From Spirochaetaceae bacterium (GTDB taxonomy: Bacteria; Spirochaetota; Spirochaetia; DSM-2461), in the NCBI GenBank assembly GCA_029210985.1, contig JARGFR010000012.1:1-35149 (forward strand): 35,149 bases of DNA, in the 5' to 3' direction. The position numbers and the translations under genes are program-made. Of the stretch, positions 3,563 through 18,803 are shown piece by piece. The notes under the pieces were generated by a model. It was not told where the DNA came from. It made no database searches and worked only from the letters and a program-made list of their open reading frames with translations. The number at the start of each line of letters is the position of its first letter. Position 1 is the first letter of the stretch.

Positions 3563-3591
3563 TTGAAAACACCCCTCAGAGGTGCTAAACT
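3563..3591 (+). promoter_or_regulatory. Promoter of the 3615 gene
   Basis: TTGAAA (3563-3568) and TAAACT (3586-3591) are separated by 17 bases, the ideal sigma-70 spacing. The spacer holds a short dyad, CACC-N7-GGTG, that could be an operator. Transcription would begin near 3598, which excludes the upstream ATG at 3582 as a start and favours the TTG at 3615. Confidence 0.6.
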
Positions 3592-3614
3592 GTAAGAGCT
3601 TGGAGGATGGACTG

Positions 3615-3959
3615 TTGATTGAAAAAAACAAGATGATAATCGCGGTATTTCTTCTATTCCTGTCCGGAATCGCTTGGGCCGCCGATACCGACGCCTTCTT
3701 CGTTGTCACCAACGATACGGGTTTTGTTCTCTCTTCCCTCCATTTCAGTCCTGTGAATTCCGAAGATTGGAGCGACGATTTACTTAACGGCAATCCACTC
3801 CTGGCGGGCGAATCAATACGTATTCCACTGGTTGAACTCAAGGGCTCCATCATCAATATTCGGGTAAAAGATGATGAAGGAGACACATATACGGTGTACT
3901 CCATCGATGTAAAAAGTGAGGATATCACCATCTCCCTCACCGATATCGATCCGGATTAA
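3615..3959 (+). CDS. Secreted one-repeat acidic protein of unknown function
   Basis: From the TTG at 3615 the product is 114 aa: a signal peptide (MIEKNKMIIAVFLLFLSGIAWA, probable cleavage after AWA) followed by a single domain. This domain matches each half of the two-repeat protein at 438-1019: VTNDTGFVLSSLHF, EDWSDDLLNG, INIRVKDDEGDTYTVYSIDV and a final LTDIDPD. It should be exported. The start is chosen because GGAGG at 3602-3606 sits eight bases before TTG and the predicted transcript begins near 3598; ATG 3633 is the alternative. The function is unknown. The acidic DDEGDT loop could bind a divalent metal (inference). It is transcribed divergently from nrdJ and ends about 80 bases before the AIM24 genes. 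Confidence 0.8.
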   Translation: MIEKNKMIIAVFLLFLSGIAWAADTDAFFVVTNDTGFVLSSLHFSPVNSEDWSDDLLNGNPLLAGESIRIPLVELKGSIINIRVKDDEGDTYTVYSIDVKSEDITISLTDIDPD

Positions 3960-4040: not shown

Positions 4041-4715
4041 ATGAATGCGACAATCTCCGGCGGACCTGCGTTCGCCCACGTCCATGTCGACCTTGAAGCC
4101 GGCGAACAGGTGACCGCGGAAAGCGGAGCCATGCAGTCCATGTCGGCCGATCTCGATCTCAAGGCACATTTCAACGGAGGCTTTTTCTCAGCCCTGGGCA
4201 AGAAATTGTTCGGTGGAGAAAGTCTTTTAGCGGCAAGTTATGTCAACAACACCGCCGAGTCCCGCAGAGTCACACTGGCTCAGAACGTTCCTGGAGAAAT
4301 ACGGGCTGTCCAGCTGTCGGAAGGTGATACTCTCTGCATGCAGCGCGGCGCTTGGCTCGCTTCCTACGGGAACGTCAAGGTGAAGACCGTCTGGGCGGGA
4401 TTTGTTTCGTGGTTTGTCGGCGAAGGATTGGTCAAACTGCAGGCGGTTGGTGCACCGGGAGGCGGGACCGTCTGGTATGGAGCCTACGGCGGTATTATTG
4501 AGCGTGAAGTCAAAGGTGAGCTGTATGTGGACAACGGTTTCCTTGTTGCATATGAGCCTGGATTGAAACTCAAGGTTGCGCTGCCCGGCGGACTGTTCGC
4601 ATCCATATTCGGCGGGGAAGGAATTGTCACCAAAGTCGTGGGCGAGGGCAGGATCTGGATCCAAACCCGGAGTATCACCGGCTTGGCGGCCTGGCTGAAT
4701 CCCAAATTCAAGTAG
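4041..4715 (+). CDS. AIM24 / TIGR00266 family protein (copy 1 of 3)
   Basis: The 224-aa protein belongs to the AIM24 (former DUF124, TIGR00266) family, a beta-rich fold of unresolved biochemical function whose eukaryotic member is mitochondrial. Family marks are VDLEAGEQVTAESGAMQSMS near the N-terminus, a FFSALGKKLFGGESLL segment near residues 49-64, LxxGDTLCMQRGAWLAS in the middle, YGGIIEREV and VDNGFLVAYEPGL, and a C-terminal FGGEGIVTKVVGEGRIWIQTRS. It has no signal peptide or membrane segment. AGGAG lies six to eight bases before the ATG. It is the first of three consecutive paralogues separated by 9-11 bases, so the three are surely co-transcribed and may form a hetero-oligomer (inference). 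Confidence 0.9.
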   Translation: MNATISGGPAFAHVHVDLEAGEQVTAESGAMQSMSADLDLKAHFNGGFFSALGKKLFGGESLLAASYVNNTAESRRVTLAQNVPGEIRAVQLSEGDTLCMQRGAWLASYGNVKVKTVWAGFVSWFVGEGLVKLQAVGAPGGGTVWYGAYGGIIEREVKGELYVDNGFLVAYEPGLKLKVALPGGLFASIFGGEGIVTKVVGEGRIWIQTRSITGLAAWLNPKFK

Positions 4716-4726
4716 GAGGATCAATT

Positions 4727-5413
4727 ATGAAAATCGAAATCGTCCAGAGACCGGCATCCTCCGCCGCCCGTGTCGCCCTTGACGCAGGTGAGCACATGAC
4801 TGCCGAGGGCGGCTCCATGATCGCCATGAGCGGCGATATGGAGATTAACACCACCACCCATAAGAAAGAAGGCGGTGGAGTTCTTAAAGGCCTTGCCCGG
4901 ACGCTTGGTGGTGAGGGACTTTTTATGAATCATTTTACAGCAGGCCCCGACGGCGGGGAGGTTATCTTATCCACAGCGCTGACCGGTGATATGGAAGCAC
5001 TGGAACTTGACGGATCGACACCGTTGATGGTTCAGAGGGGTTCTTTCGTTGCCCATGAATCCTCTGTGGACATGTCCATCAGTTGGCAGGGATTGAAGAA
5101 CGTCTTCTCGGGAGAGAACATGATCTGGCTGAAGATGAACGGCTCGGGATCTCTCATCATCAATGCCTTCGGAGCCCTCTATCCGGTGGACGTCGATGGT
5201 GAGTACATCGTCGATACCGGGAACATTGCCGCCTTTGAAGACAGTCTCACATATAAAATTTCCAAGGCCGGCAAGAGCTTCATCGCATCAATGCTCGGCG
5301 GCGAAGGTCTGGTCTGCCGATTTTCGGGAAAGGGCCGCGTTTGGTGCCAGACTCATGCCGACCGCAATTTCGGCGCCAGCCTCAAACCTCACCTCAGACC
5401 GAAGAAAAAGTAG
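4727..5413 (+). CDS. AIM24 / TIGR00266 family protein (copy 2 of 3)
   Basis: The 228-aa protein is a second AIM24-family paralogue. It keeps VALDAGEHMTAEGGSMIAMS, a GVLKGLARTLGGEGLFMNHF segment, a central TPLMVQRGSFVAHESSV, VDTGNIAAFEDSLTYKI and a C-terminal LGGEGLVCRFSGKGRVWCQT. It starts 11 bases after copy 1, behind an AGGAGG ribosome-binding site. Copies 2 and 3 share the phrase EGLVCRFSG(K/E)G, so they look closer to each other than to copy 1. The function is unknown. It is probably a soluble cytoplasmic or membrane-peripheral protein. Confidence 0.9.
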   Translation: MKIEIVQRPASSAARVALDAGEHMTAEGGSMIAMSGDMEINTTTHKKEGGGVLKGLARTLGGEGLFMNHFTAGPDGGEVILSTALTGDMEALELDGSTPLMVQRGSFVAHESSVDMSISWQGLKNVFSGENMIWLKMNGSGSLIINAFGALYPVDVDGEYIVDTGNIAAFEDSLTYKISKAGKSFIASMLGGEGLVCRFSGKGRVWCQTHADRNFGASLKPHLRPKKK

Positions 5414-5422
5414 GAGACCGAC

Positions 5423-6106
5423 ATGGATACAACGAAAACCGACTATCCCTTCACTGTTGAGGCATCCCCGGATTACGCATTTCTCAACGTCACCATTCCC
5501 GGAGGCAAGACCCTTCGGGTTGAAGCGGAGGCCATGGCCGCAATGGATACCTCCATTACGATGAAGACAAAGATGAAGGGCGGATTCAAACGTATGCTCA
5601 GCGGAGAGAAACTCTTCATCAATGATTACACCGCCGGTGTTGAGGATGCCTACATTGGGTTGGCTCCGGCCACACCCGGCGATATCGCCCATCTTTACCT
5701 CGAAAACGAGACCGTATTCGTCCAGAACGGATCTTTTCTCGCATCAGGACCGGAAATTCAGTCCGGCATTGAGTTCCAAGGATTCAAGGGTTTCTTCTCC
5801 GGCGAAAAACTCTTTATGATCCGCAATTCGGGTACCGGTGATTTATGGTTCAATACTTACGGCGGTCTGATTGAAATTGACGTCAAGGATCGATATGTCG
5901 TGGATACAGGATATATCGTCGCCTTCACCGATAGTCTCACATACGACGTGCGTCCGGTGGGAGGCATGAAATCTTTCTTTTTCTCCAAGGAAGGATTAGT
6001 CTGCCGATTCTCCGGTGAGGGGAAAGTGTGGATACAAACCCGCCTCGCACCGGCCTTTGTCAAGTGGGCCGATGCCTTCCGGAAAGTCGAAAGCAAGAAG
6101 ACCTGA
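5423..6106 (+). CDS. AIM24 / TIGR00266 family protein (copy 3 of 3)
   Basis: The 227-aa protein is the third AIM24-family paralogue. It has a short extra N-terminal segment (MDTTKTDYPFTVEASPDYA) before the family core: LRVEAEAMAAMDTSI, KGGFKRMLSGEKLFINDYTA, TVFVQNGSFLASGPEI, YGGLIEIDV, VDTGYIVAFTDSLTY and KEGLVCRFSGEGKVWIQTR. The start lies nine bases after copy 2, behind a GGAG site. The acidic AEAMAAM motif replaces the AESGAM/AEGGSM of the other two, so the three have diverged in the N-terminal loop. The function is not known. Confidence 0.9.
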   Translation: MDTTKTDYPFTVEASPDYAFLNVTIPGGKTLRVEAEAMAAMDTSITMKTKMKGGFKRMLSGEKLFINDYTAGVEDAYIGLAPATPGDIAHLYLENETVFVQNGSFLASGPEIQSGIEFQGFKGFFSGEKLFMIRNSGTGDLWFNTYGGLIEIDVKDRYVVDTGYIVAFTDSLTYDVRPVGGMKSFFFSKEGLVCRFSGEGKVWIQTRLAPAFVKWADAFRKVESKKT

Positions 6107-8987: not shown

Positions 8988-9572
8988 TCAAAGGATTCTG
9001 TGGATGGGCATGTTTTCCCGGGCTACCGGTGAAAACAGTGCAATCGGACTATCGGGCAATTCCCGTTTCAGTTTCTCAGAAAGATCGCACGACATCCCGA
9101 CGTTTCCTTTCGAATCTTCCGTCTGAGTGATGCGGAATCCATAACGATGATACCAGTCCACCAGAGACATGCCCGAATCGTTGGTCATCTCCGTATCCAA
9201 ATCCACGCGCATGTAGCCTTCCTCAGTCGCCTCGATCAGCAGAGCTTGGAGTAGTCGTCCTCCCAGACCCAGCTTCGGCACGGATACGGCCAAAGTGTCC
9301 AAGTATAAAGTGCGCGAATTCCGTCCTTGGTTGATGAGGATGCAGGCCGCCGGGCCTCGGGTGTCGAAGAGTATCAGGCCCTCGAATCCATGCCGGGAAG
9401 CCCTATCTTTCAATTCATCCCGGGAGTAATGAAGACTGGGCGGAAAGGCGGCGCGCTCCACTCTCTGAAAAGCGTTGAAAAAGTAGGGTGTCCAACGGCG
9501 AAAACTCATCCACCGAAAAGTCGGTGCGGTTATCAGAGCCGATTCGGCGACCCTGGAAAGAATACCGGTCAT
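8988..9572 (-). CDS. GNAT family N-acetyltransferase
   Basis: The 194-aa protein has the GNAT core: RVERAAFPPSLHYS near 36-50, a central strand LYLDTLAVSVPKLGLGGRLL with the acetyl-CoA pyrophosphate loop (KLGLGG), and VDWYHRYGFRITQTE, the typical strand-helix end of the fold. It would transfer an acyl group from acyl-CoA to an amine; the acceptor is unknown. It is the last gene of a four-gene minus-strand operon. Its ATG (9572-9570) overlaps the TGA of the ATP-grasp gene as ATGA. This coupling suggests that it modifies the product of the preceding ligase, or an intermediate of that pathway (inference). Confidence 0.85.
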   Translation of the reverse strand: MTGILSRVAESALITAPTFRWMSFRRWTPYFFNAFQRVERAAFPPSLHYSRDELKDRASRHGFEGLILFDTRGPAACILINQGRNSRTLYLDTLAVSVPKLGLGGRLLQALLIEATEEGYMRVDLDTEMTNDSGMSLVDWYHRYGFRITQTEDSKGNVGMSCDLSEKLKRELPDSPIALFSPVARENMPIHRIL

Positions 9573-10555
9573 GTCATGCGTCCCATAGCCGAATCAATCA
9601 AGGCCGCCACGAGGGAGTCATAATCGTAACCCCCTCGGAAGGCCATGAGGGTAAAGAAAGAGAAGTCATTCTCTTTAAGATCAAAATCCATACCCGGGAG
9701 AGGGTTGGCCTCCAGGAATCGAGGACGGCCAAACTCATCCACACGAAAATCGATTCGAACGAAGTCTCGGATGCCCAGGGAAAGCCAGACACGGAGCGCC
9801 TCGGCCTTCACGACGGCTTCCAATCCCGGATTCACCCGGGCGGGGCATAAATAATGGGACATATCGTCGTATTCGGTCTTGGCGATCTGCCCGAACACAT
9901 TGCCCACCGACTCAGGCATCCGGGAAAAATCCACCTCCAAAAGCGGGAGTATTTCAGGACCCGCACCATTACGGCCTACCATTCCGACGCTGATTTCCCG
10001 TCCGGCGATAAACTGCTCGGCCAGGATAGGTTGACGGTACGTGCTCAACATCTCCTTGGCCTTGATGACGAAGGTTTCGCGATCCCTCACGACATTGTCC
10101 TCATTGATTCCGATGGAGGATCCCTCCGCATTGGGTTTCAGGATGATGGGAAAGTCCATGCGGCAGCCGTCCACGTCCGCCGGCACGGAGAGGACTTCGA
10201 AATCCGGCGTATCGACGCCCCGGGCCGCAACGAAAGTCTTCGTCCATGCTTTATCCAGGCAGACGGCCAGAGTCTTCGGCCCCGAACCGACATAGGGGAT
10301 GCCCAGCATCTCAAGGATGCATGGCACATGGCTCTCCCGACTTTCACCGCGGATGCCCTCAGAACGATTGAAAACCAGGTCGGGACGATGGACCTTCAGG
10401 CTTTCGACGACATTCTCATCGCCTTCGATGAACACATACTCATGTCCGGCGGCGATAATGCCCTTCCGGATCAGATCGATGGTGGCGGGCGGATCGAATT
10501 CCACCTGGAACTCGTCGTCGACCAGCCGTGTATTCAGAACAAGGGCAACTTTCAT
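9569..10555 (-). CDS. D-alanine-D-alanine-ligase-like ATP-grasp enzyme
   Basis: The 328-aa protein has the ATP-grasp layout of the Ddl family: an N-terminal MKVALVLNTR strand, DLVFNRSEGIRGESRESHVP, GIPYVGSGPKTLAVCLDKAWTK, the ATP-binding ILKPNAEGSSIGI and AEQFIAGREISVGMVG, and the magnesium/product segment FRVDEFGRPRFLEANPLPGM near the end. Such enzymes join an amine to a carboxylate via an acyl phosphate. The usual Ddl substrate-end motif NTLPGMT reads NPLPGMD here, and the operon context is not cell-wall division genes, so a dedicated peptide or amide ligase is as likely as a true D-Ala-D-Ala ligase. The start is the ATG at 10555 overlapping the upstream TGA (ATGA), behind GAGG. A longer upstream in-frame start at 10570 is less likely. 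Confidence 0.85.
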   Translation of the reverse strand: MKVALVLNTRLVDDEFQVEFDPPATIDLIRKGIIAAGHEYVFIEGDENVVESLKVHRPDLVFNRSEGIRGESRESHVPCILEMLGIPYVGSGPKTLAVCLDKAWTKTFVAARGVDTPDFEVLSVPADVDGCRMDFPIILKPNAEGSSIGINEDNVVRDRETFVIKAKEMLSTYRQPILAEQFIAGREISVGMVGRNGAGPEILPLLEVDFSRMPESVGNVFGQIAKTEYDDMSHYLCPARVNPGLEAVVKAEALRVWLSLGIRDFVRIDFRVDEFGRPRFLEANPLPGMDFDLKENDFSFFTLMAFRGGYDYDSLVAALIDSAMGRMT

Positions 10556-11955
10556 AGAGCCTCGCAGCATCGCCGGAAATCGGCGATTTCTTTCTGAAAA
10601 ATCTTCAAAGTCTGTTCCCTGACGGCAGATGGGACAGTGTCTGAACTGTGTATCGACACGAATCGGTCCAGCAGCTCCCCTCCCCGTTCGAGGGCCTCGT
10701 CACGGAGCGGCGAATTCCGAAACTCCCTCACCAGAGCCTCATCGGAACCGAATCCGGCGGCGAGGGAAAAGGCAAAAAGCTGTTCGTCCCTGGATGCGGA
10801 GGTCCGGCTGTAGGGAAAGCGGCTCGAACCGCCGAGTAGGGTGAAGAACCGCCTATCGGAGGATTTCAGCATGGATCGCCTGAACCCGACCATAGACGGG
10901 TCCACACCGGAGGCGACGCACATCAGATACATCTTGGCGCAGATATCACATTCGTGGCACCAGCGGGAGTCTCGACCGGCTTCCCCTTCGGCAAAACAGC
11001 TCATCTGCAGGGCTGCATACCGAGGGTAGCGTTTGACAAGAATGCGCTGGACCATCAGGTCCATGAGAGGCTCGATGAGACTGCCGGTTCGCACCGGATA
11101 AGGATCGGTCAGCTGAGACGTCATGGCATCGATGTGCCTTGTCCAATCATGGGATTGGTCGTAGCAGGGATGAACGGTCCAGCGGTCCTCTTTATCCCGA
11201 TAAGTGACAGCGGCTGTCTGCTCATTGCCGAAGAGGATGAAATCCGCGCCCCAATACCTCGCCAAAGGTAACATCAAGAGCGCATACTCGGTGGATTGCA
11301 GTCCCCAGCCGTACTCATCAGGCTCAGTTCCGAGGTGTTCCGAGTCCCGGAGCATTCCGGATTGATGGTCCACGATGACCAGCTCATGTCCGAATTCGTC
11401 CTTCATCCGCCGGGAGAGGATTTCCTTGTGATGACGCTCCCTCCCGAAAGACGGTTCGTCGACGAAAGCCCCCTTGGGCCTCAGGCCGAGCTCTTCCGCC
11501 AACGCAAAGGTGAGGAGGGAATCCTTTCCGAAGGTGAGGGGTACGATGGCGCCCGCCGGCCGAGAGGAAGGAAGCGGCCACGTCCCGGGCCGCCGGATAT
11601 CATCCGAGGCGAAACTGTATTCGAGTCCAAGAAATCTTTCGATGCCCAAACCGATGTCACTGCCGTCGACGTCGCAGCAGGAGGGTATGTCCTGCAGCAT
11701 ATTATGACGGAAATAGGGTTCGAACAGGGGTCTGGTCGTCATGTAGGACAGGCCGCTGAGACCGGGCATCTTCATCGGCAGGTGCATCGTCGCCGCATAA
11801 GCCAGGTTATCGGTCAATAAATCGCGTTCCCTTTCCGGAACCGAGTTCCAAACCTCTTTCGGATAGGCGACTGGATAGGATCGTGCCCGAAAGATCAAGG
11901 CATAGCCGTCCTCTGTCCGGTCCACGGCAATGGAGGGTTTTCCGGCCGGGTTCAT
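10552..11955 (-). CDS. PP-loop ATP pyrophosphatase protein, MurL-like epimerase candidate
   Basis: The 467-aa protein carries an N-type ATP-pyrophosphatase signature: VPLTFGKDSLLT (141-148, PP-loop with the SGGKDS Gly-Gly replaced by Phe-Gly), ADFILFGNEQ (GNE at 243-245), HPCYDQSHDW (263-271) and a cysteine cluster CHECDIC (333-339) with Cys320 nearby. An N-terminal domain of about 130 residues precedes the PP-loop. The order of N-domain, PP-loop, GNE and xYxQS motif reminds me of MurL, which epimerises the terminal L-Glu of UDP-MurNAc-dipeptide after adenylation, but this is recalled likeness and not an alignment. It would activate a carboxylate by adenylation. The start is the ATG at 11955, which shares its A with the upstream TGA; longer starts would lie inside the PLP gene. 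Confidence 0.72.
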   Translation of the reverse strand: MNPAGKPSIAVDRTEDGYALIFRARSYPVAYPKEVWNSVPERERDLLTDNLAYAATMHLPMKMPGLSGLSYMTTRPLFEPYFRHNMLQDIPSCCDVDGSDIGLGIERFLGLEYSFASDDIRRPGTWPLPSSRPAGAIVPLTFGKDSLLTFALAEELGLRPKGAFVDEPSFGRERHHKEILSRRMKDEFGHELVIVDHQSGMLRDSEHLGTEPDEYGWGLQSTEYALLMLPLARYWGADFILFGNEQTAAVTYRDKEDRWTVHPCYDQSHDWTRHIDAMTSQLTDPYPVRTGSLIEPLMDLMVQRILVKRYPRYAALQMSCFAEGEAGRDSRWCHECDICAKMYLMCVASGVDPSMVGFRRSMLKSSDRRFFTLLGGSSRFPYSRTSASRDEQLFAFSLAAGFGSDEALVREFRNSPLRDEALERGGELLDRFVSIHSSDTVPSAVREQTLKIFQKEIADFRRCCEAL

Positions 11956-13124
11956 CACGATTGCTTGCCCGTAATAATGGCGACGTACCGGTCTCCGGGA
12001 AGCGGATCGGAAATATGCCGCTCGATGAGAGCATTCAACCCGGCGGTGGAAGCCGGGAGTACCCAAAGCCCGTCGGATTCCTTCAGAGTCCGGGCCCATC
12101 GCCGCATCGCCTTGTCCGAGACATAACCGGCCCATCCCTCCGAATCGCGTATGGCGCGCAGGGCTTCATCTCCGTCTGTGGAGTGCCAGTTGATCAGGGG
12201 TTCGTTCACAACGCTTTCCCGTATTGACGCGGGGTTGAGATCGCGGCATTCCGGATACCCCTTGATCCAGGAATCCACGATGGGATTCTTGCGATATGTG
12301 GAGCCCGCGATGATTTTCGGTATCCGGGAAGTCTTGCATCGCCTGTAGAGACTTTGGAAACCCATAGATATACCCGCCAGTGTAGTGCCGTTGGAGACCG
12401 GTACCGCGACCGCCGCCGGCGCGTCCCGGAGCTCGTCGTATATTTCATAGGCGATCTGAGCGTAGGCCTCCAATTGGAGGGACGTGTTCCGCCCTCCGGG
12501 ATTCGCATCGTAGAAGTCCTCCGTTTCCGCCCTGGCGCGGGATAAAGTACAGGCTTCTTCATAATCCTTTCCTTCGAAGACCATCTCGGCATCGTAACCG
12601 GAAATCTCATCCACGCGATGGGTGGAGTAGCCCTCGGGAATGTACACCAGGCATTTCAGACCGGCGAGTTTGCAGGCCAGGGCCATGGAAGCGCCGTAAT
12701 TGCCGCATGTAGCCAATGCGACGGTATCATATCCCCGGCGCAGGGCATCATGGACCTGGGCGAAAGCGATCCGATCCTTCTGAGTGCCTGTAGGGTTCCC
12801 CCCCTCGAATTTCAAATAGAGATTTCGCAGGTTCACTTCCCGTTCGATGTTTCGCACCCGGGTCAGGGAAGTGTCGCCAATCTCGGAATCGATGATGTCC
12901 CGGAACGCGGAAACCCTGTCAGGAGTCGGCAGCAGACGGTCGGCGACCATGTCGGTGAGATTCTGGATGTCGGGATCGAAAATCGGTGATTGAGATGTGG
13001 CACCATCGAGCAGAAACTCGCGTACCCCACCGGCAGACGACGGAGGCTCTGTATCGTCGGGCCGTCCGGAATTGGCGTCTTCTCCCTGACCAAAGGCCCG
13101 GGAAACCAAGGGCGATCGATTCAC
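11955..13124 (-). CDS. Threonine-synthase-like PLP enzyme (fold type II)
   Basis: The 389-aa protein is a fold-type II pyridoxal-phosphate enzyme. It shows IGDTSLTRVRNIE, KFEGGNPTGTQKDRIA (presumed Schiff-base Lys116), the substrate-loop-like ATCGNYGASMALACKLAG, and VPVSNGTTLAG as the phosphate-binding segment. The pattern is closest to threonine synthase and cysteine-synthase relatives; the reaction would be a beta- or gamma-elimination or replacement. The first 60 residues look unlike the family and the start is uncertain: GTG at 13124 has a GAGG seven bases upstream. The 131-base gap to sufU holds a small GTCCC-TGAA-GGGAC hairpin (13152-13165) and no other gene. It is the first gene of the coupled operon ending at 8988. 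It may make the unusual amino acid that the later enzymes activate, ligate and acylate (inference). Confidence 0.82.
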   Translation of the reverse strand: MNRSPLVSRAFGQGEDANSGRPDDTEPPSSAGGVREFLLDGATSQSPIFDPDIQNLTDMVADRLLPTPDRVSAFRDIIDSEIGDTSLTRVRNIEREVNLRNLYLKFEGGNPTGTQKDRIAFAQVHDALRRGYDTVALATCGNYGASMALACKLAGLKCLVYIPEGYSTHRVDEISGYDAEMVFEGKDYEEACTLSRARAETEDFYDANPGGRNTSLQLEAYAQIAYEIYDELRDAPAAVAVPVSNGTTLAGISMGFQSLYRRCKTSRIPKIIAGSTYRKNPIVDSWIKGYPECRDLNPASIRESVVNEPLINWHSTDGDEALRAIRDSEGWAGYVSDKAMRRWARTLKESDGLWVLPASTAGLNALIERHISDPLPGDRYVAIITGKQS

Positions 13125-13255: not shown

Positions 13256-13702
13256 TTACCCTTCCAGCGCCTTCTCCAAGGCATGCCAGGCCAGAGTCGC
13301 ACATTTCACGCGCATCGGGAATTGGACAACACCTCCCAGGACGGCCAGATCGCCCCACTCTTCCAGCGTCTCGGCCGGTTCCTCTCCTCTGAGAACGTTC
13401 AGAAATACACCAATGAGTTCCCGAGCCTCATCCGGGGTCTTGCCCGCAAAGCGTTCACTCATGAGCGAAGCCGACGCGGTACTGATGGCGCAGCCGTGAC
13501 CGTCGAACCTCACCGATGCGATCCGGCCGTCTTCGCCCACCAAAACTTCCAGTTTGATCGAATCTCCGCATGAGGGATTCTCATGGAGATTCTCATCGCT
13601 GAGGTGAGAAAGGTCGGCCTTGTTGCGCGGGGACTTGTAGTGGTCGAGAATAATCTCCATATAAAGATCGTCCAATTGACCCATGCCTTGCTGCTGCATC
13701 AT
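13256..13702 (-). CDS. sufU: SufU-type sulfurtransferase for Fe-S assembly
   Basis: The 148-aa protein belongs to the IscU/SufU family. Zinc/scaffold residues are visible as NPSCGD (Cys45, Asp47), GHGCAIS (Cys71) and RVKCATLAW (Cys134). The insertion between Cys71 and Cys134 (ERFAGKTPDEAREL and GEEPAETLEEWGD) is the one typical of SufU, which takes persulfide sulfur from SufS, rather than of IscU. Its ATG overlaps the sufS stop as ATGA (13702-13699), so the two partners are translationally coupled, as expected for a desulfurase and its acceptor. It is the last gene of the SUF operon. Confidence 0.93.
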   Translation of the reverse strand: MMQQQGMGQLDDLYMEIILDHYKSPRNKADLSHLSDENLHENPSCGDSIKLEVLVGEDGRIASVRFDGHGCAISTASASLMSERFAGKTPDEARELIGVFLNVLRGEEPAETLEEWGDLAVLGGVVQFPMRVKCATLAWHALEKALEG

Positions 13703-14961
13703 CGAAAATACTCCTGAACGCCACGGACTGCATCCGCCAATCGGTCGATGTCTTCGGGGGTGTTGTATGGGGCCAGAGAGGCTCGGGCCGTGGACGGTAT
13801 GCCCATCAATCTCATCGCCGGCTGGGCACAGTGATGGCCGGACCGTATCGCGACCTGAACCTTGTCCAGGTACTGAGCGACATCGTGACTGTGTATGCCC
13901 GCCAGATTGAACGAATACACAGCGCGGCGCCGATAAGGATCCCGGGGACCATACAGAATGAGGCCTTCAACTTCGGTGAGTTTTCTCATGGCGTATGTCT
14001 CCAGGTCCCTCTCCCGGGCTTCCAGGCGTTCCACTCCATGGGAACTCATCCAATCCAGTGCCGCGGCTAAACCCACCGCGGCGGCCACATCGGGAGTTCC
14101 GGCTTCAAATTTATAGGGAAGCTCATTCCATGTGCTTTTTTCCGGCTTGACCGAGGAGATCATTTCACCGCCGGTTTGCCATGGCGGCATTTTCTCCAGC
14201 CATTCTTCCCGGCCCCACAACACCCCGGAGCCCATAGGACCGAACACCTTATGGCCGCTGAACACCAGAAAATCCGCACCGGTCGCCTGGGCGTCCAAGG
14301 GCAGATGCGGCGCCGACTGGGCGGCATCCAGAACCAGAGGAATGTCCCTCTCACGGCTCCACTTGGCCAGGATTCGAACCGGATGGACCGTTCCGAAGGC
14401 GTTGGAAATATGTGCCAAGGCGGCAATCTTCACTTTGGCCGCCCGGCCGTCGCTATCCAGCTCGTTCAGAAACCCCATATCCAGGGTTCCATCCTCCAGG
14501 GCCGGGATGAGCACCAGTTCCGCCCCTTTTCGAAGTGCAGCCTGCTGCCAGGGCACAAAATTGGCATGGTGCTCAAGAGCGCTCACCAAGATAATATCCC
14601 CTTCGCCCAGGAGAAGTTCGCTCAGGCTCCAGGCCAGGAGGTTCAGTCCCTCGGTGGTGCCCCGTGTGAAGATGATTTCCCGGGGGGAAGAGGCATTTAG
14701 AAATCGTTCCACCGTACGCCTTGCATCTTCGAAAGCGACGGTGGATTTTTCCGCCAGGGAATAGAGGGCCCGATGAACATTGGAATTGGCTTCCCGGTAA
14801 TACGTGTCGAGAGCTTTCAGCACCGCCTCCGGCTTCTGGCTGGTGGCCGCGTTGTCCAGGTATGCCAATTCCGGATGAGCCATGAGAAGAGGAAAGTCTT
14901 TTTTAATCTCGTCTCCGACAGCCGGGCGGGAATCCAGCAGCGGTGCTTCGGGCCGGCTCAT
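13699..14961 (-). CDS. sufS: SufS cysteine desulfurase (group II)
   Basis: The 420-aa PLP enzyme removes sulfur from cysteine to give alanine and an enzyme persulfide. Key marks are YLDNAATSQKP near 34, the EHHANFVPWQ motif with His131/His132, LDAAQSAPH, FSGHKVFGPMG with the PLP Lys238, and RSGHHCAQP with the active-site Cys378. The short RSGHHCAQP loop places it in the SufS/CsdA group rather than with IscS. It lies 13 bases after the Rieske gene and is coupled to sufU by an ATGA overlap. Length and motifs indicate a complete enzyme. Confidence 0.96.
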   Translation of the reverse strand: MSRPEAPLLDSRPAVGDEIKKDFPLLMAHPELAYLDNAATSQKPEAVLKALDTYYREANSNVHRALYSLAEKSTVAFEDARRTVERFLNASSPREIIFTRGTTEGLNLLAWSLSELLLGEGDIILVSALEHHANFVPWQQAALRKGAELVLIPALEDGTLDMGFLNELDSDGRAAKVKIAALAHISNAFGTVHPVRILAKWSRERDIPLVLDAAQSAPHLPLDAQATGADFLVFSGHKVFGPMGSGVLWGREEWLEKMPPWQTGGEMISSVKPEKSTWNELPYKFEAGTPDVAAAVGLAAALDWMSSHGVERLEARERDLETYAMRKLTEVEGLILYGPRDPYRRRAVYSFNLAGIHSHDVAQYLDKVQVAIRSGHHCAQPAMRLMGIPSTARASLAPYNTPEDIDRLADAVRGVQEYFR

Positions 14962-14974
14962 ATCAATCTCCTCA

Positions 14975-15307
14975 TCAGGCGTAGTCCGGGAGTTCCACCC
15001 ATATTTCGTCCCCTCTCCGCTCTACGGAATAAGCCGGAACATCGTCGGTTGCGGGCAGTCCCCTCACTTCACCGGTACGGCAGTCGAAGGACGATCCATG
15101 CTTTTCGCAGTAAACCCTGTCATCCCAAACCTCTCCTTCGGAAAGCTTTGAGAATTCATGGGAGCATGTATCTTCCAGCGCGGCCCAGCCCCCGTGAAGC
15201 TTGAACAGAACCAGATCGTACCCTTCAACATCCACCGGCAGGGACGGCTGGTCCGGATGGAGATTGTCGAAGTCCGATATGTCCGCCGCTTTCACCCATC
15301 TGCCCAT
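14975..15307 (-). CDS. Rieske-type [2Fe-2S] ferredoxin in the SUF operon
   Basis: The 110-aa protein is a stand-alone Rieske domain. The cluster ligands are CSH (Cys48, His50) and CEKH (Cys67, His70), with the SFDCRTGEVRGLPA loop following. It resembles the soluble ferredoxins of ring-hydroxylating dioxygenases and NirD-like proteins. No dioxygenase is nearby. It begins three bases after sufD and lies before sufS, so it is co-expressed with the SUF machinery. It probably supplies electrons for assembly or acts as a dedicated electron carrier (inference). Similar Rieske genes are found in SUF operons of other bacteria as far as I recall. Confidence 0.9.
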   Translation of the reverse strand: MGRWVKAADISDFDNLHPDQPSLPVDVEGYDLVLFKLHGGWAALEDTCSHEFSKLSEGEVWDDRVYCEKHGSSFDCRTGEVRGLPATDDVPAYSVERRGDEIWVELPDYA

Positions 15308-15310
15308 ACA

Positions 15311-16597
15311 TCAATTCTCTCCGTATGAGAGAGCCTCGTCCAGGTCGGCGGAGAGGATTTCGGAGACTGCGCCGGGAGCGCCGTCAATGACTGAGGCCAG
15401 AAATGCTCGTGTGAGCTCCCGTTTCGCCTCGCCCGGGGAAAAGCCCCTGCTTCTGAGATAGAAAATCTGACCCTCATCCAGTTTGCCTGTTGTGGATCCG
15501 TGACTGCACTTCACATCGTCGGTCAGGATGTCCAGCTGGGGCAGAGAGTCGGATCTTGCGTCATCTCCGAGAATCAGATTGTTGTTCGTCAGATACGCAT
15601 CGGTTTTCACCGCCTTGGGCGCCACCTCAATGAGACCCTGAAACACACTTCGTCCCCCTGAACGAACCGCTCCTTTGTAAAGCGCATTGGAATTGGCCCT
15701 GGCTGCCCGATGCTCCTGGAGGGTGCCGATATCCATGTGGCGCTTCTCACCGGCGATGTATATGCCGTTGAGCCGTACGTCGGCTCCTTCCCCGGCCAGG
15801 ATGGACCGGGCCCGTGTTTTCACCATAGCCCCCCCTAGGTGAGACTCGATGAAACCGATATGGGCATCCCGTTGGACGCTGAGGATGTCATGATGAAATA
15901 ACACAACTCTATCGCCGAGATTCTGTCTCAGGGTAATGTTCAAATGGGAATTCGGGGCCGCCGAAGCGGTCAGAGCTGAGTTGACGATGGGAGTCACACT
16001 CTCATCGGTCATGGGAGCTCCTTCCAAGGACCAGACCACCGTCAGCTGGGCGCCCTGTTCGACTTCGACATGAAGATGAGGAGCCGAGACGAGGAATAGG
16101 GCCGGATCGGATGCGATGAGGCGCTCCTCCACCAACACCGGATTTTCGATGCGGGCATTTCGGGACGCATGTACCACAAGAGAGCCCGGAAAATCCCGCC
16201 AATGCCAGGAGGTGATGCGGTCCGGCGACCGGTCCAGTTCGGCACGCGCCGCGGTTTCCAGGCTGGGTGGAAGATCTGCGGGGGCACACCATTCGATACT
16301 CAAACCGGCCTCCCCGGCCTGAGGAGAAATGACAATGGCCACAGGGATTCCCCGCTCGGTAATCACCCGGGCTGCGAACTGTTCGGGCAAGAGCGGGACA
16401 TGACGGTCGACGATTTCCGCCGGGTCGGCCGGAGGAGCTTGGGCACTCCGATCCAGCAGGCCCTTGGGCAGGAGTCGACGCAAATCGGTCCGCCGCCAGG
16501 GTTCGTCCTCGGGTGTAGGCCAAGGCGTCTTGGCGAACAGATCCTTGGCGACGGCCGTCAGGAGGTCATCTACAACACCGGCTCGTTCACTCGTCAT
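15311..16597 (-). CDS. sufD: SufD, Fe-S assembly scaffold subunit
   Basis: The 428-aa protein is SufD, partner of SufB in the SufBC2D scaffold. The N-terminal half is poorly conserved ([24 protein letters not shown]). The C-terminal beta-helix holds the family signature: [60 protein letters not shown], then [24 protein letters not shown] with the conserved His and the SufC-binding end. Its ATG overlaps the sufB stop (ATGA, 16597-16594). It ends three bases before the Rieske gene. Confidence 0.94.
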
Positions 16598-18000
16598 CCC
16601 ACGCTCCCTTCCATTTCCAGCTCTATCAATCGATTGAGCTCCACCGCATATTCCATGGGCAGCTGCTTCACCAGGGGATCCAGAAAACCGTTGACGATCA
16701 TCATGGACGCTTCCTCTTCGGAAAGCCCTCGAGCCATCAGATAGAAGAGCTGTTCCTCGCTGATTTTGCTCACCCGGGCCTCATGTTCCATGGACACATC
16801 ATCCGATTCAATTTCCATGTAGGGAAAGGTCTTGCTGATTGAAGTTTCGTCCAGAAGCAAAGCATCGCATTCCACATGGCTCTTCACGTTGTGCAGACCC
16901 TCAGCCACCTTGATGAGACCTCGATAAGTGGCGGTTCCGCCGTCCTTGCTGATGGATTTCGACGTGATGACGCTGGAGGTGTTTGATGCATGATGGACGA
17001 TTTTTCCGCCGGTATCCTGTTCCTGATTCTTCCCGCCGAAGGCGATGGAGAGCACCTCTCCATGCGCACCTTCGCCCATCAGGTACACGGCGGGATACTT
17101 CATGGTGCGTTTGGAGCCGATATTTCCGTCCACCCACTCCACAGTGGCGCCCTCTTTGGCTACGGCACGCTTGGTGACCAGATTGTAGACGTCTCCCGAC
17201 CAATTCTGAATGGTGGAGTACCGGACCCGAGCGCCCTTCTCCGCCACAATTTCCACCACCGCGCTATGAAGCGAATCGGTGGTGTAGACGGGAGCGGTAC
17301 AGCCCTCGATGTAATGCACGAAGCTGTTTTCATCCACAATAATCAGAGTGCGTTCGAATTGACCGAAGTTTTCCGAGTTGATGCGGAAATAGGCCTGGAG
17401 GGGAATCTCCACCTTCACATTGGGCGGCACATAAATGAAGCTCCCGCCCGACCAGACCGCCGAGTTGAGGGCGGCAAATTTGTTGTCGTTGAAAGGAATG
17501 ATGGTGCCGAAATATTTGCGAACGATGTCGGGGTGCTCGGCCACCGCCTGTTCGGGTGAGAGGAACAGCACGCCCTGATCCTCCAAGTTCTTATGGATGG
17601 AATGGTAAACCACCTCCGAATCGTATTGGGCTCCGACACCGGCCAAAAAGTTCTTTTCGGCTTCGGGGAGCCCCAGACGGTCGTAGGTTTCCAGAATGTC
17701 CGCGGGGAGATCTTTCCAGGAACTCACCGAAGACTGGGACGGCTTCGCGTAGTAAAAAATGTCCTCGAAATCGATATCGCTGATATCCGCTCCCCAGTCG
17801 GGCATGGATTTCCGGTGAAACGCCCTCAGGGCGCGGAGTCGGAATTCCAGCATCCATTCCGGCTCATTCTTCTGTGCGCTGATATTCCGCACCACCTCTT
17901 CACTCAGACCTTTGGCCGGCTTATAGACCGACTGGTCGGGGTAGGAGAAACCATACTGATAATCGCTTAATCCAGAAACGGGAATCTGTTCTTCACTCAT
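16594..18000 (-). CDS. sufB: SufB, Fe-S assembly scaffold subunit
   Basis: The 468-aa protein is a full-length SufB. It has the family opening ([26 protein letters not shown]), [58 protein letters not shown], the EGCTAPVY segment that supplies a conserved cysteine, and the C-terminal [28 protein letters not shown]. SufB receives sulfur from the SufS/SufU pair and assembles the nascent cluster with SufD and the ATPase SufC. Its ATG overlaps the sufC stop and its stop overlaps the sufD start, so all three scaffold genes are translationally coupled. Confidence 0.96.
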
Positions 18001-18803
18001 GCCGAAACCCCCTGTGCAGGCGAGGGGTCACCGGCTGAACCGGCCGCCGCTTTGGGGTCCAGAGTCTCTTTCACCCAGTCATAACCCTTGGCCTCAAGTT
18101 CGTGGACGATGTCCGGCCCGCCGGAGAGAACGATTTGACCGTCTACCAGAACGTGAACCTTATCGGGTTTCACATAGTCCAGAATCCGCTGGTAATGGGT
18201 AATCACCAGAGCACCGAAACCCCGGCCCCGCATTTCGTTCACACCTTTGGCAACAACCTTCAGGGCGTCGATATCAAGCCCCGAGTCGGTTTCGTCCAAA
18301 ACGGAAAAACCCGGTTTGAGCATCAGCATCTGGAGAATCTCCATCCGTTTCTTCTCACCACCGGAAAATCCCTCATTCAGATATCGATTGATAAATTTCT
18401 GGTCAATGCCCATGAAATCCATCGCCGTCCGAAGCTCCTTGATGTAGGCGGTGACGTCGAATCGCCCTTCTTCTCCTCTTCTGAGTTCCACCGCACGTTT
18501 GAGAAACTTGCCCACGGTGATGCCCGGGACTTCAACGGGATATTGGAAAGCCAAGAAGAGTCCAGCCTGGGCGCGCTCATGGGCTTCCATTTCCGATAAA
18601 TTGATGTCGCCCATAGAAAAGGATCCGGCATTCACCTGGTATTGGGGATGACCGGCCAATACATTGGCCAGTGTGCTTTTTCCCGATCCGTTGGGGCCCA
18701 TCAGAGCATGGATTTCACCGTCCGGTACTTCGAGGGATATGCCCCGCAGGATTTCCTGATCCGGCAATCCGGCTTTCAAATTCTCTATTTTTAAGTTCAT
18801 CAT
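17997..18803 (-). CDS. sufC: SufC, ABC-type ATPase for Fe-S assembly
   Basis: The 268-aa protein is the SufC ATPase. It shows Walker [10 protein letters not shown] (36-44), the Q-loop FQYPVEVPG, the signature [15 protein letters not shown], Walker [15 protein letters not shown] and the switch His in ITHYQRIL. It drives conformational change of SufB and SufD. A tail of about 20 residues rich in Ala, Gly and Pro ([15 protein letters not shown]) extends past the usual end. Two tandem ATGs (18803 and 18800) follow a GAGGAG site; either could be used. The gene follows the sufT-like gene by nine bases. Confidence 0.96.

Follow-up and report, generated by a model that had tools for sequence, protein, structure and literature searches.

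Several described systems bear on the locus examined here. MurL, an ATP-dependent epimerase, sets AMP free and is believed to act by adenylating its substrate (PMC5808125, PMC8788868), DgcN–DgcA is an established D-Glu route (PMC12363236, PMC10845958), and the NAGGN (asnO-ngg) system, in which a single Ngg protein both acetylates and ligates and AsnO amidates, yields N-acetylglutaminylglutamine amide (PMC8070244). We analysed a stretch of 35,149 nucleotides from a Spirochaetaceae bacterium (assembly GCA_029210985.1, contig JARGFR010000012.1), whose full length is called the window, and within it a minus-strand operon at 8988..13124 that encodes a pyridoxal phosphate (PLP) enzyme, a PP-loop protein, an ATP-grasp ligase and a GNAT acetyltransferase. 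The initial annotation took these genes for a candidate undescribed pathway that could lead to a dipeptide-type natural product or to an altered peptidoglycan precursor. Based on our observations, an apparently undescribed, coupled, non-housekeeping biosynthetic operon for a dipeptide-type metabolite is supported, while a peptidoglycan precursor is disfavoured, and the four genes are a rare variant related to a wider PLP/DgcN-like/PP-loop-creatininase/dipeptide-epimerase cluster rather than a natural pathway unit in themselves. The main value of the operon is that it leads to this widespread, undescribed cluster.

The four-gene operon and the housekeeping genes of its genome

The operon opens with a fold-type-II PLP enzyme of the PRK06381 family that resembles threonine synthase (11955..13124; Pfam PALP, 9.3e-55). 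It continues with a PP-loop ATP-pyrophosphatase of 467 aa, a predicted remote MurL relative (P0001; 10552..11955), and a Ddl-like ATP-grasp ligase of a distinct FNRSEGIRGESRES-type subgroup, recognized by Dala_Dala_lig_C (2.1e-26) and by alignments to solved Ddl enzymes (9569..10555). The last gene encodes a GNAT-fold acetyltransferase (8988..9572; PF00583, 2.4e-5, 25 bits against a cut-off of 20.7), homologues of which close the three other operons of this type. These families are the ones first assigned. The MurL likeness holds as a remote homology, with MurL as the best NCBIfam match of the PP-loop protein and 28 of its 37 homologues matching the MurL model, and fails as family membership, the score lying below the MurL cut-off of 700 bits. 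The proposed coupling was confirmed at all three junctions. At 11953..11957 a TGATG joins the PLP stop codon (TGA, 11957-11955) to the PP-loop start codon (ATG, 11955-11953) with one base in common, and ATGA overlaps link the PP-loop stop to the ATP-grasp start (10552..10555) and the ATP-grasp stop to the GNAT start (9569..9572), all on the minus strand. The PP-loop protein starts at 11955, not at the ATG at 12135 of the longest open reading frame, and the ligase at 10555. The true start of the PLP enzyme is uncertain, because the first ~40 residues of its reading frame (GTG at 13124) have a predicted local distance difference test (pLDDT) value <50 in the AlphaFold model and the alignment of most homologues begins no earlier than about residue 36-38.

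The four-gene unit is real but sparse. It is whole, with its order kept, in four Spirochaetales genomes, namely that of the window and three others (G009, which is locus L031, and loci L032 and L034). Stop-start overlaps are present at all three junctions in L031, where the last is a GTGA; L032 and L034 have them at the first two (PLP/PP-loop and PP-loop/ATP-grasp), and there the GNAT gene follows close behind. Identity to the window proteins in these three sister operons is 66-71% for the PLP enzyme, 52-58% for the PP-loop protein, 57-63% for the ligase and 31-35% for the acetyltransferase. Searches for the PP-loop gene recovered it from 2 of 98 relatives and, across the order, from 2 of 26 genomes. 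None of the four genes is the housekeeping copy of its genome (3.68 Mb in 341 contigs, estimated 94.6% complete): a canonical ddl lies on contig C284 (330 bits, cut-off 245.65), thrC proper on C144 (268.5 bits, cut-off 167.1), and murI is split over C300 (132.3 bits) and C184 (29.9 bits), each piece falling below the cut-off of 146.65 owing to the split.

A widespread PLP/DgcN-like/PP-loop cluster

What is the wider context of these genes? Named genomes were scanned with the PLP alignment, and among the loci with relatives the best 80 of 148 were read; between them these span roughly twelve phylum names, bacterial as well as archaeal. The record titles include Desulfobacterales, other Deltaproteobacteria, Acidobacteria, Zixibacteria, Gemmatimonadota, Planctomycetota, Latescibacterota and Krumholzibacteriota, and further titles name Calditrichaceae, Ignavibacteriae, Bacteroidetes-type genera, Nitrospirota, Spirochaetota, Bathyarchaeota, Thermoplasmata and others. 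Most loci come from metagenome-assembled genomes, in which single taxon assignments may err, and several from whole-chromosome records; two hosts are the named strains Flexithrix dorotheae DSM 6795 and Desulfosarcina widdelii PP31.

Neighbouring genes were counted by tblastn over the 61 loci whose DNA extends 4.7 kb or more downstream. A DUF1611 (DgcN-like) gene lies downstream of the PLP gene in 57 of the 61, and the PP-loop query of this widespread, or core, type matched 54, two of them weakly (sister operons); the three sister operons match the window-type PP-loop query. An enolase-superfamily dipeptide epimerase is present at 43 of these loci and a creatininase, in most cases as a fusion with the PP-loop domain, at 41. 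These neighbours share the strand of the PLP gene, beside which no recurrent same-strand transporter or regulator was found. Most archaeal loci consist of PLP, DUF1611 and PP-loop genes only. A genome of the window's own family (G011) has a PLP-DUF1611-epimerase set in place of the window-type operon, and a search for a DgcN-type cluster detected no DUF1611 anywhere in the window genome. At L030/L085 and L144 (two spirochaete loci by the tblastn count), ATP-grasp and S66 LD-carboxypeptidase genes were observed directly upstream of the PLP gene, and in L030 DUF1611 and the PP-loop domain form one fused protein.

PLP–PP-loop gene linkage is present in both cluster types. The window-type PP-loop protein is ~20% identical to the core type and homologous to it by tblastn, at about 47-84 bits in most loci. 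In a midpoint-rooted tree it groups with solo spirochaete PP-loop proteins, on long branches that fit a swap or fast divergence alike; solo PP-loop relatives in G285 and G307 have no common gene context. In the PLP tree the four window-type sequences group as one clade (support 0.98) that falls within bacterial sequences of the DUF1611 type, where the surrounding branches have moderate support (0.75-0.87). From these comparisons we interpret the window operon as a variant in which the PLP enzyme has been kept, the PP-loop protein is a much diverged relative and the remainder has been exchanged for a ligase and an acetyltransferase. We put forward, with slightly less than even confidence, that the PLP/DgcN-like/PP-loop set forms the heart of an undescribed pathway, either ancient or spread widely by transfer, through which bacteria and archaea make a conserved intracellular metabolite, and that it has been remodelled in the window so that GNAT and ATP-grasp enzymes take over acylation and completion of the product. 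No published description of either cluster was found in the open-licence literature; subscription journals could hold one. If the proposal is true, genes that many genomes now list as 'threonine synthase', 'DUF1611', 'creatininase' or 'mandelate racemase-like' belong to one unassigned pathway, which the two named, cultured hosts make open to experiment. Additionally, MurL, described in 2018 as being without known conserved domains, would gain a candidate fold that accounts for its release of AMP, namely a PP-loop combined with a four-cysteine site.

Predicted properties of the four enzymes

The PP-loop protein has no Pfam match. Its NCBIfam matches are MurL (NF041275; 1.7e-4 to 2.5e-4, 19.7-20.2 bits) and one weaker model; the 28 homologues that match MurL, the best at 2.1e-7, match no other NCBIfam family. 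The homology spans much of the length, with residues 233-446 of P0001 aligned to model positions 225-440 and residues 121-395 of the L027 protein to 129-398. In a Foldseek search of the Protein Data Bank with the AlphaFold model (pLDDT 79.7, predicted template modelling score 0.86), the best matches were MnmA (9.6e-4) and QueC (1.7e-3), followed by 4-thiouridine synthetase, ThiI, Cap9 (template modelling (TM) score 0.66 by target length) and TtuA. Only MnmA passes 0.001 and query-length TM-scores stay <0.3, because P0001 has N- and C-terminal parts beyond the matched proteins. In a profile search its loop aligned to 3k32 and 2hma, among others, at weak E-values. The loop reads TFGKDS (11518..11535, minus strand; SGGK(D/E)S in most homologues), with G143, K144 and L147 invariant in 37 sequences, and the motif together with the Foldseek matches identifies an SGGxDS-type PP-loop in an alpha/beta HUP fold. 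Also invariant in the 37 are E167, P230, E245, Q267, S319 and four cysteines, C320, C333, C336 and C339 (SC...WCHECDIC; 10939..10998, minus strand), the cysteines also throughout the 33 sequences of a further alignment, A4. Their C-x12-C-x2-C-x2-C spacing suggests a metal site. QueC, a PP-loop enzyme that amidates a carboxylate, has a similar zinc site. As modelled, the protein is remotely related to MurL and has a QueC-like predicted fold. Its chemistry is likely to be carboxylate adenylation, since the sole NCBIfam family matched by the homologues is MurL, an enzyme that consumes ATP with release of AMP and is believed to adenylate its substrate. No viral relatives of the PP-loop protein were found.

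The PLP enzyme exceeds the cut-off of NF004996/PRK06381 (419.9 bits against 266), all 34 homologues tested match PRK06381 at 1e-60 or better, and the solved structures nearest to its AlphaFold model by Foldseek are threonine synthases. The 'threonine synthase' label is nevertheless probably wrong for this family, because the enzyme stays below the cut-off of TIGR00260 (thrC; 84.6 bits against 167.1), carries family-specific invariant residues and coexists with another thrC above the cut-off in all 14 core-cluster genomes tested. Lys116 (NPTGTQKDR; 12777..12779, minus strand), invariant in 81 homologues, is the predicted Schiff-base lysine by alignment to solved threonine synthases. Cys140, Asp206, Asn208 and Gln217 are likewise invariant across the 81 sequences. 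The family-specific Cys140 (12705..12707, minus strand) lies in an ATCGNYG loop, and PLP paralogues of the window genome have Thr, Ser or Ala at this position. Gln217, a further part of the case against the label, replaces the Arg of the NP(H/Y)RxEG segment in three aligned solved threonine synthases (1uim pairwise), a placement that is moderately certain as the alignment is gapped there. In threonine synthase this Arg serves as the phosphate ligand. Elsewhere in the family, an in-frame TGA flagged as possible recoding in the L067 and L070 genes proved to be an ordinary stop codon, and in G050 and G070 (L142, L143) transposase-like genes adjoin a PLP gene that has no usual partners and may be a relic or orphan.

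The ATP-grasp ligase scores 135.8 bits against TIGR01205 (Ddl), whose cut-off is 245.65. In alignments to 8evy, 5d8d and others it has none of the Ddl substrate-loop motifs, reading SEGIRGESRE for HGxxGEDG and AKT for AKY, and relative to solved Ddl enzymes it carries an insertion of about six residues behind PGM. The assignment of the ACETYLTRANSFERASE protein is unspecific. Relatives of the ligase with 30-38% identity are present in 51 of 393 Spirochaetota genomes. Among 19 of their loci examined (from L116-L134 and L145-L149), 15 adjoin a KamA-type radical S-adenosylmethionine aminomutase, and frequently a GNAT gene and a second ATP-grasp gene lie there too. These KamA - ATP-grasp - (ATP-grasp) - GNAT operons possibly represent an undescribed beta-amino-acid peptide pathway; no paper naming them was found, and their GNAT protein has no significant match in the window locus. 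The logic of ligase plus acetyltransferase recurs beside an amino-acid-making enzyme in these spirochaete operons, and by this analogy a peptide-like product is supported, favoured although not proven.

The promoter scan gave no site exceeding shuffled sequence, and terminator-like sites were near the shuffled level (7 against 4.1, standard deviation 2.3). SufU, the last gene of a suf-type set (13256-18803, minus strand), lies 131 bases upstream of the operon in the same orientation; this adjacency is probably incidental, other genes occupying that place in the sister operons read. Elsewhere in the window, three AIM24-family genes stand in tandem (4041-6106, plus strand), and a ribonucleotide reductase gene is flanked by two genes (438-1019 and 3582-3959, plus strand) whose proteins have no Pfam match and appear to share a repeated motif, NDTGF...LxxS/K.

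Proposed pathway, alternatives and known systems

We tentatively propose, rating it a little short of an even chance, a mosaic operon that makes a small N-acylated, carboxylate-activated dipeptide-like metabolite with neither a housekeeping nor a cell-wall role. The genes, their coupling and conserved order, the fold classes, the conserved residues and the non-redundancy with housekeeping genes were established here; substrates, step order, product and role we infer. In no implied order, the PLP enzyme would act on a hydroxy- or phospho-hydroxy-amino acid, by beta/gamma-replacement or by elimination, to give a non-standard amino acid. The GNAT protein may N-acylate this amino acid, a role that would fall to the DgcN-like protein in the widespread cluster, and the Ddl-like enzyme would couple it to a second amino acid via an acyl-phosphate. 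The PP-loop enzyme would adenylate the N-acyl product at its free carboxylate, with release of pyrophosphate and AMP, and might either invert the alpha-carbon as MurL does, which we slightly favour, or amidate the carboxylate as QueC does. Several points weigh against this proposal. The MurL similarity is remote, ~20 bits against a cut-off of 700, and at ~20% identity the chemistry of the window and core PP-loop proteins may differ. The PLP/DgcN-like pair is found without an adjoining PP-loop gene in L057, L071, L083, L102 and G011, and the PLP gene is solitary in G050 and G070. Moreover, four enzymes of one operon need not form one linear route, and every substrate and product in the scheme is of our own proposing.

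Could the operon instead provide a compatible solute, with GNAT and ATP-grasp enzymes making an N-acetyl dipeptide whose carboxylate is amidated by the PP-loop enzyme, much as Ngg and AsnO act for N-acetylglutaminylglutamine amide? The same three activities, acetylation, peptide ligation and ATP-dependent amidation, are united in that system, the predicted fold and four-cysteine spacing are QueC-like, and the core cluster has no conserved transporter. However, the PP-loop protein matches MurL but none of the AsnB or QueC models, there was no sign of a glutaminase domain, and a threonine-synthase-like enzyme is not described for NAGGN operons, where one Ngg protein serves for two steps (PMC8070244). 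We consider this unlikely, at roughly a one-in-four chance in our judgement. Still less likely is the salvage of a D-amino acid by a relative of DgcN–DgcA, in which the substrate would be N-acylated, epimerised, released and then degraded by the PLP enzyme. A DgcN-like protein (159-173 bits), an enzyme resembling DgcA or Ala-Glu epimerase (155 bits) and an amidohydrolase of the creatininase family do belong to the widespread cluster, and two loci add an S66 carboxypeptidase, but the DgcN and DgcA scores fall far below their cut-offs (480 for DgcN, 400 for DgcA) and most archaeal loci have neither epimerase nor creatininase. The window genome, for its part, has no DUF1611, and its operon carries a ligase and no DgcA-type epimerase, amidohydrolase or transporter.

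An altered peptidoglycan precursor or a D-Glu supply, with the PP-loop protein as MurL and the ligase as a variant Ddl, draws on the remote MurL homology and on the Ddl homology. It is highly improbable, because the PLP/PP-loop pair also occurs in archaeal genomes and the window genome has its own ddl and murI; the operon is, besides, missing from nearly all relatives. Archaea are not known to have murein. That the operon is a chance row of housekeeping thrC, ddl and murL genes has next to no probability: PRK06381 does name the PLP enzyme threonine synthase, but the separate ddl, thrC and split murI rule this reading out, as does a separate thrC in each core-cluster genome tested, and the overlapping order is kept in four genomes. 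Anti-phage defence is not supported, the operon having no PADLOC match.

How, then, does the mosaic operon that we propose compare with known systems? It shares with MurL a remote collinear homology of the PP-loop protein and the AMP-releasing use of ATP expected of the PP-loop fold, but has other neighbours, no MurD2-like partner and a host that possesses murI, unlike the murI-less hosts of MurL. DgcN–DgcA is echoed by DgcN-like and DgcA-like proteins in the widespread cluster, at scores far from equivalog level; the window operon has neither gene, and that pathway uses no PLP enzyme, PP-loop protein or ATP-grasp ligase. The NAGGN system is comparable in joining an acetyltransferase, a peptide ligase and an ATP-dependent carboxylate-activating enzyme in the logic of an N-acyl dipeptide amide. 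In the window the activities lie in separate genes, a MurL-like PP-loop protein without any amidotransferase-family match stands where NAGGN has an AsnB-type enzyme, and a PLP enzyme is added; TIGR03103, the fused GNAT/ATP-grasp model, gave no match for the acetyltransferase and is not among the 25 matches listed for the ligase. With threonine synthase (PRK06381/TIGR00260) the PLP enzyme has in common fold type II, its nearest solved structures and a score above the PRK06381 cut-off, and it departs in its TIGR00260 score, its invariant Cys140 and Gln217 and the presence of a separate thrC. The ligase has the ATP-grasp fold and C-terminal ATP-grasp motifs of Ddl, but differs in score and substrate loops and resides in a genome with a canonical ddl elsewhere. 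Finally, the KamA operons of Spirochaetota have an aminomutase instead of PLP and PP-loop enzymes, yet they hold the nearest spirochaete relatives of the window ligase (30-38%) and follow the same logic of ligase plus acetyltransferase.

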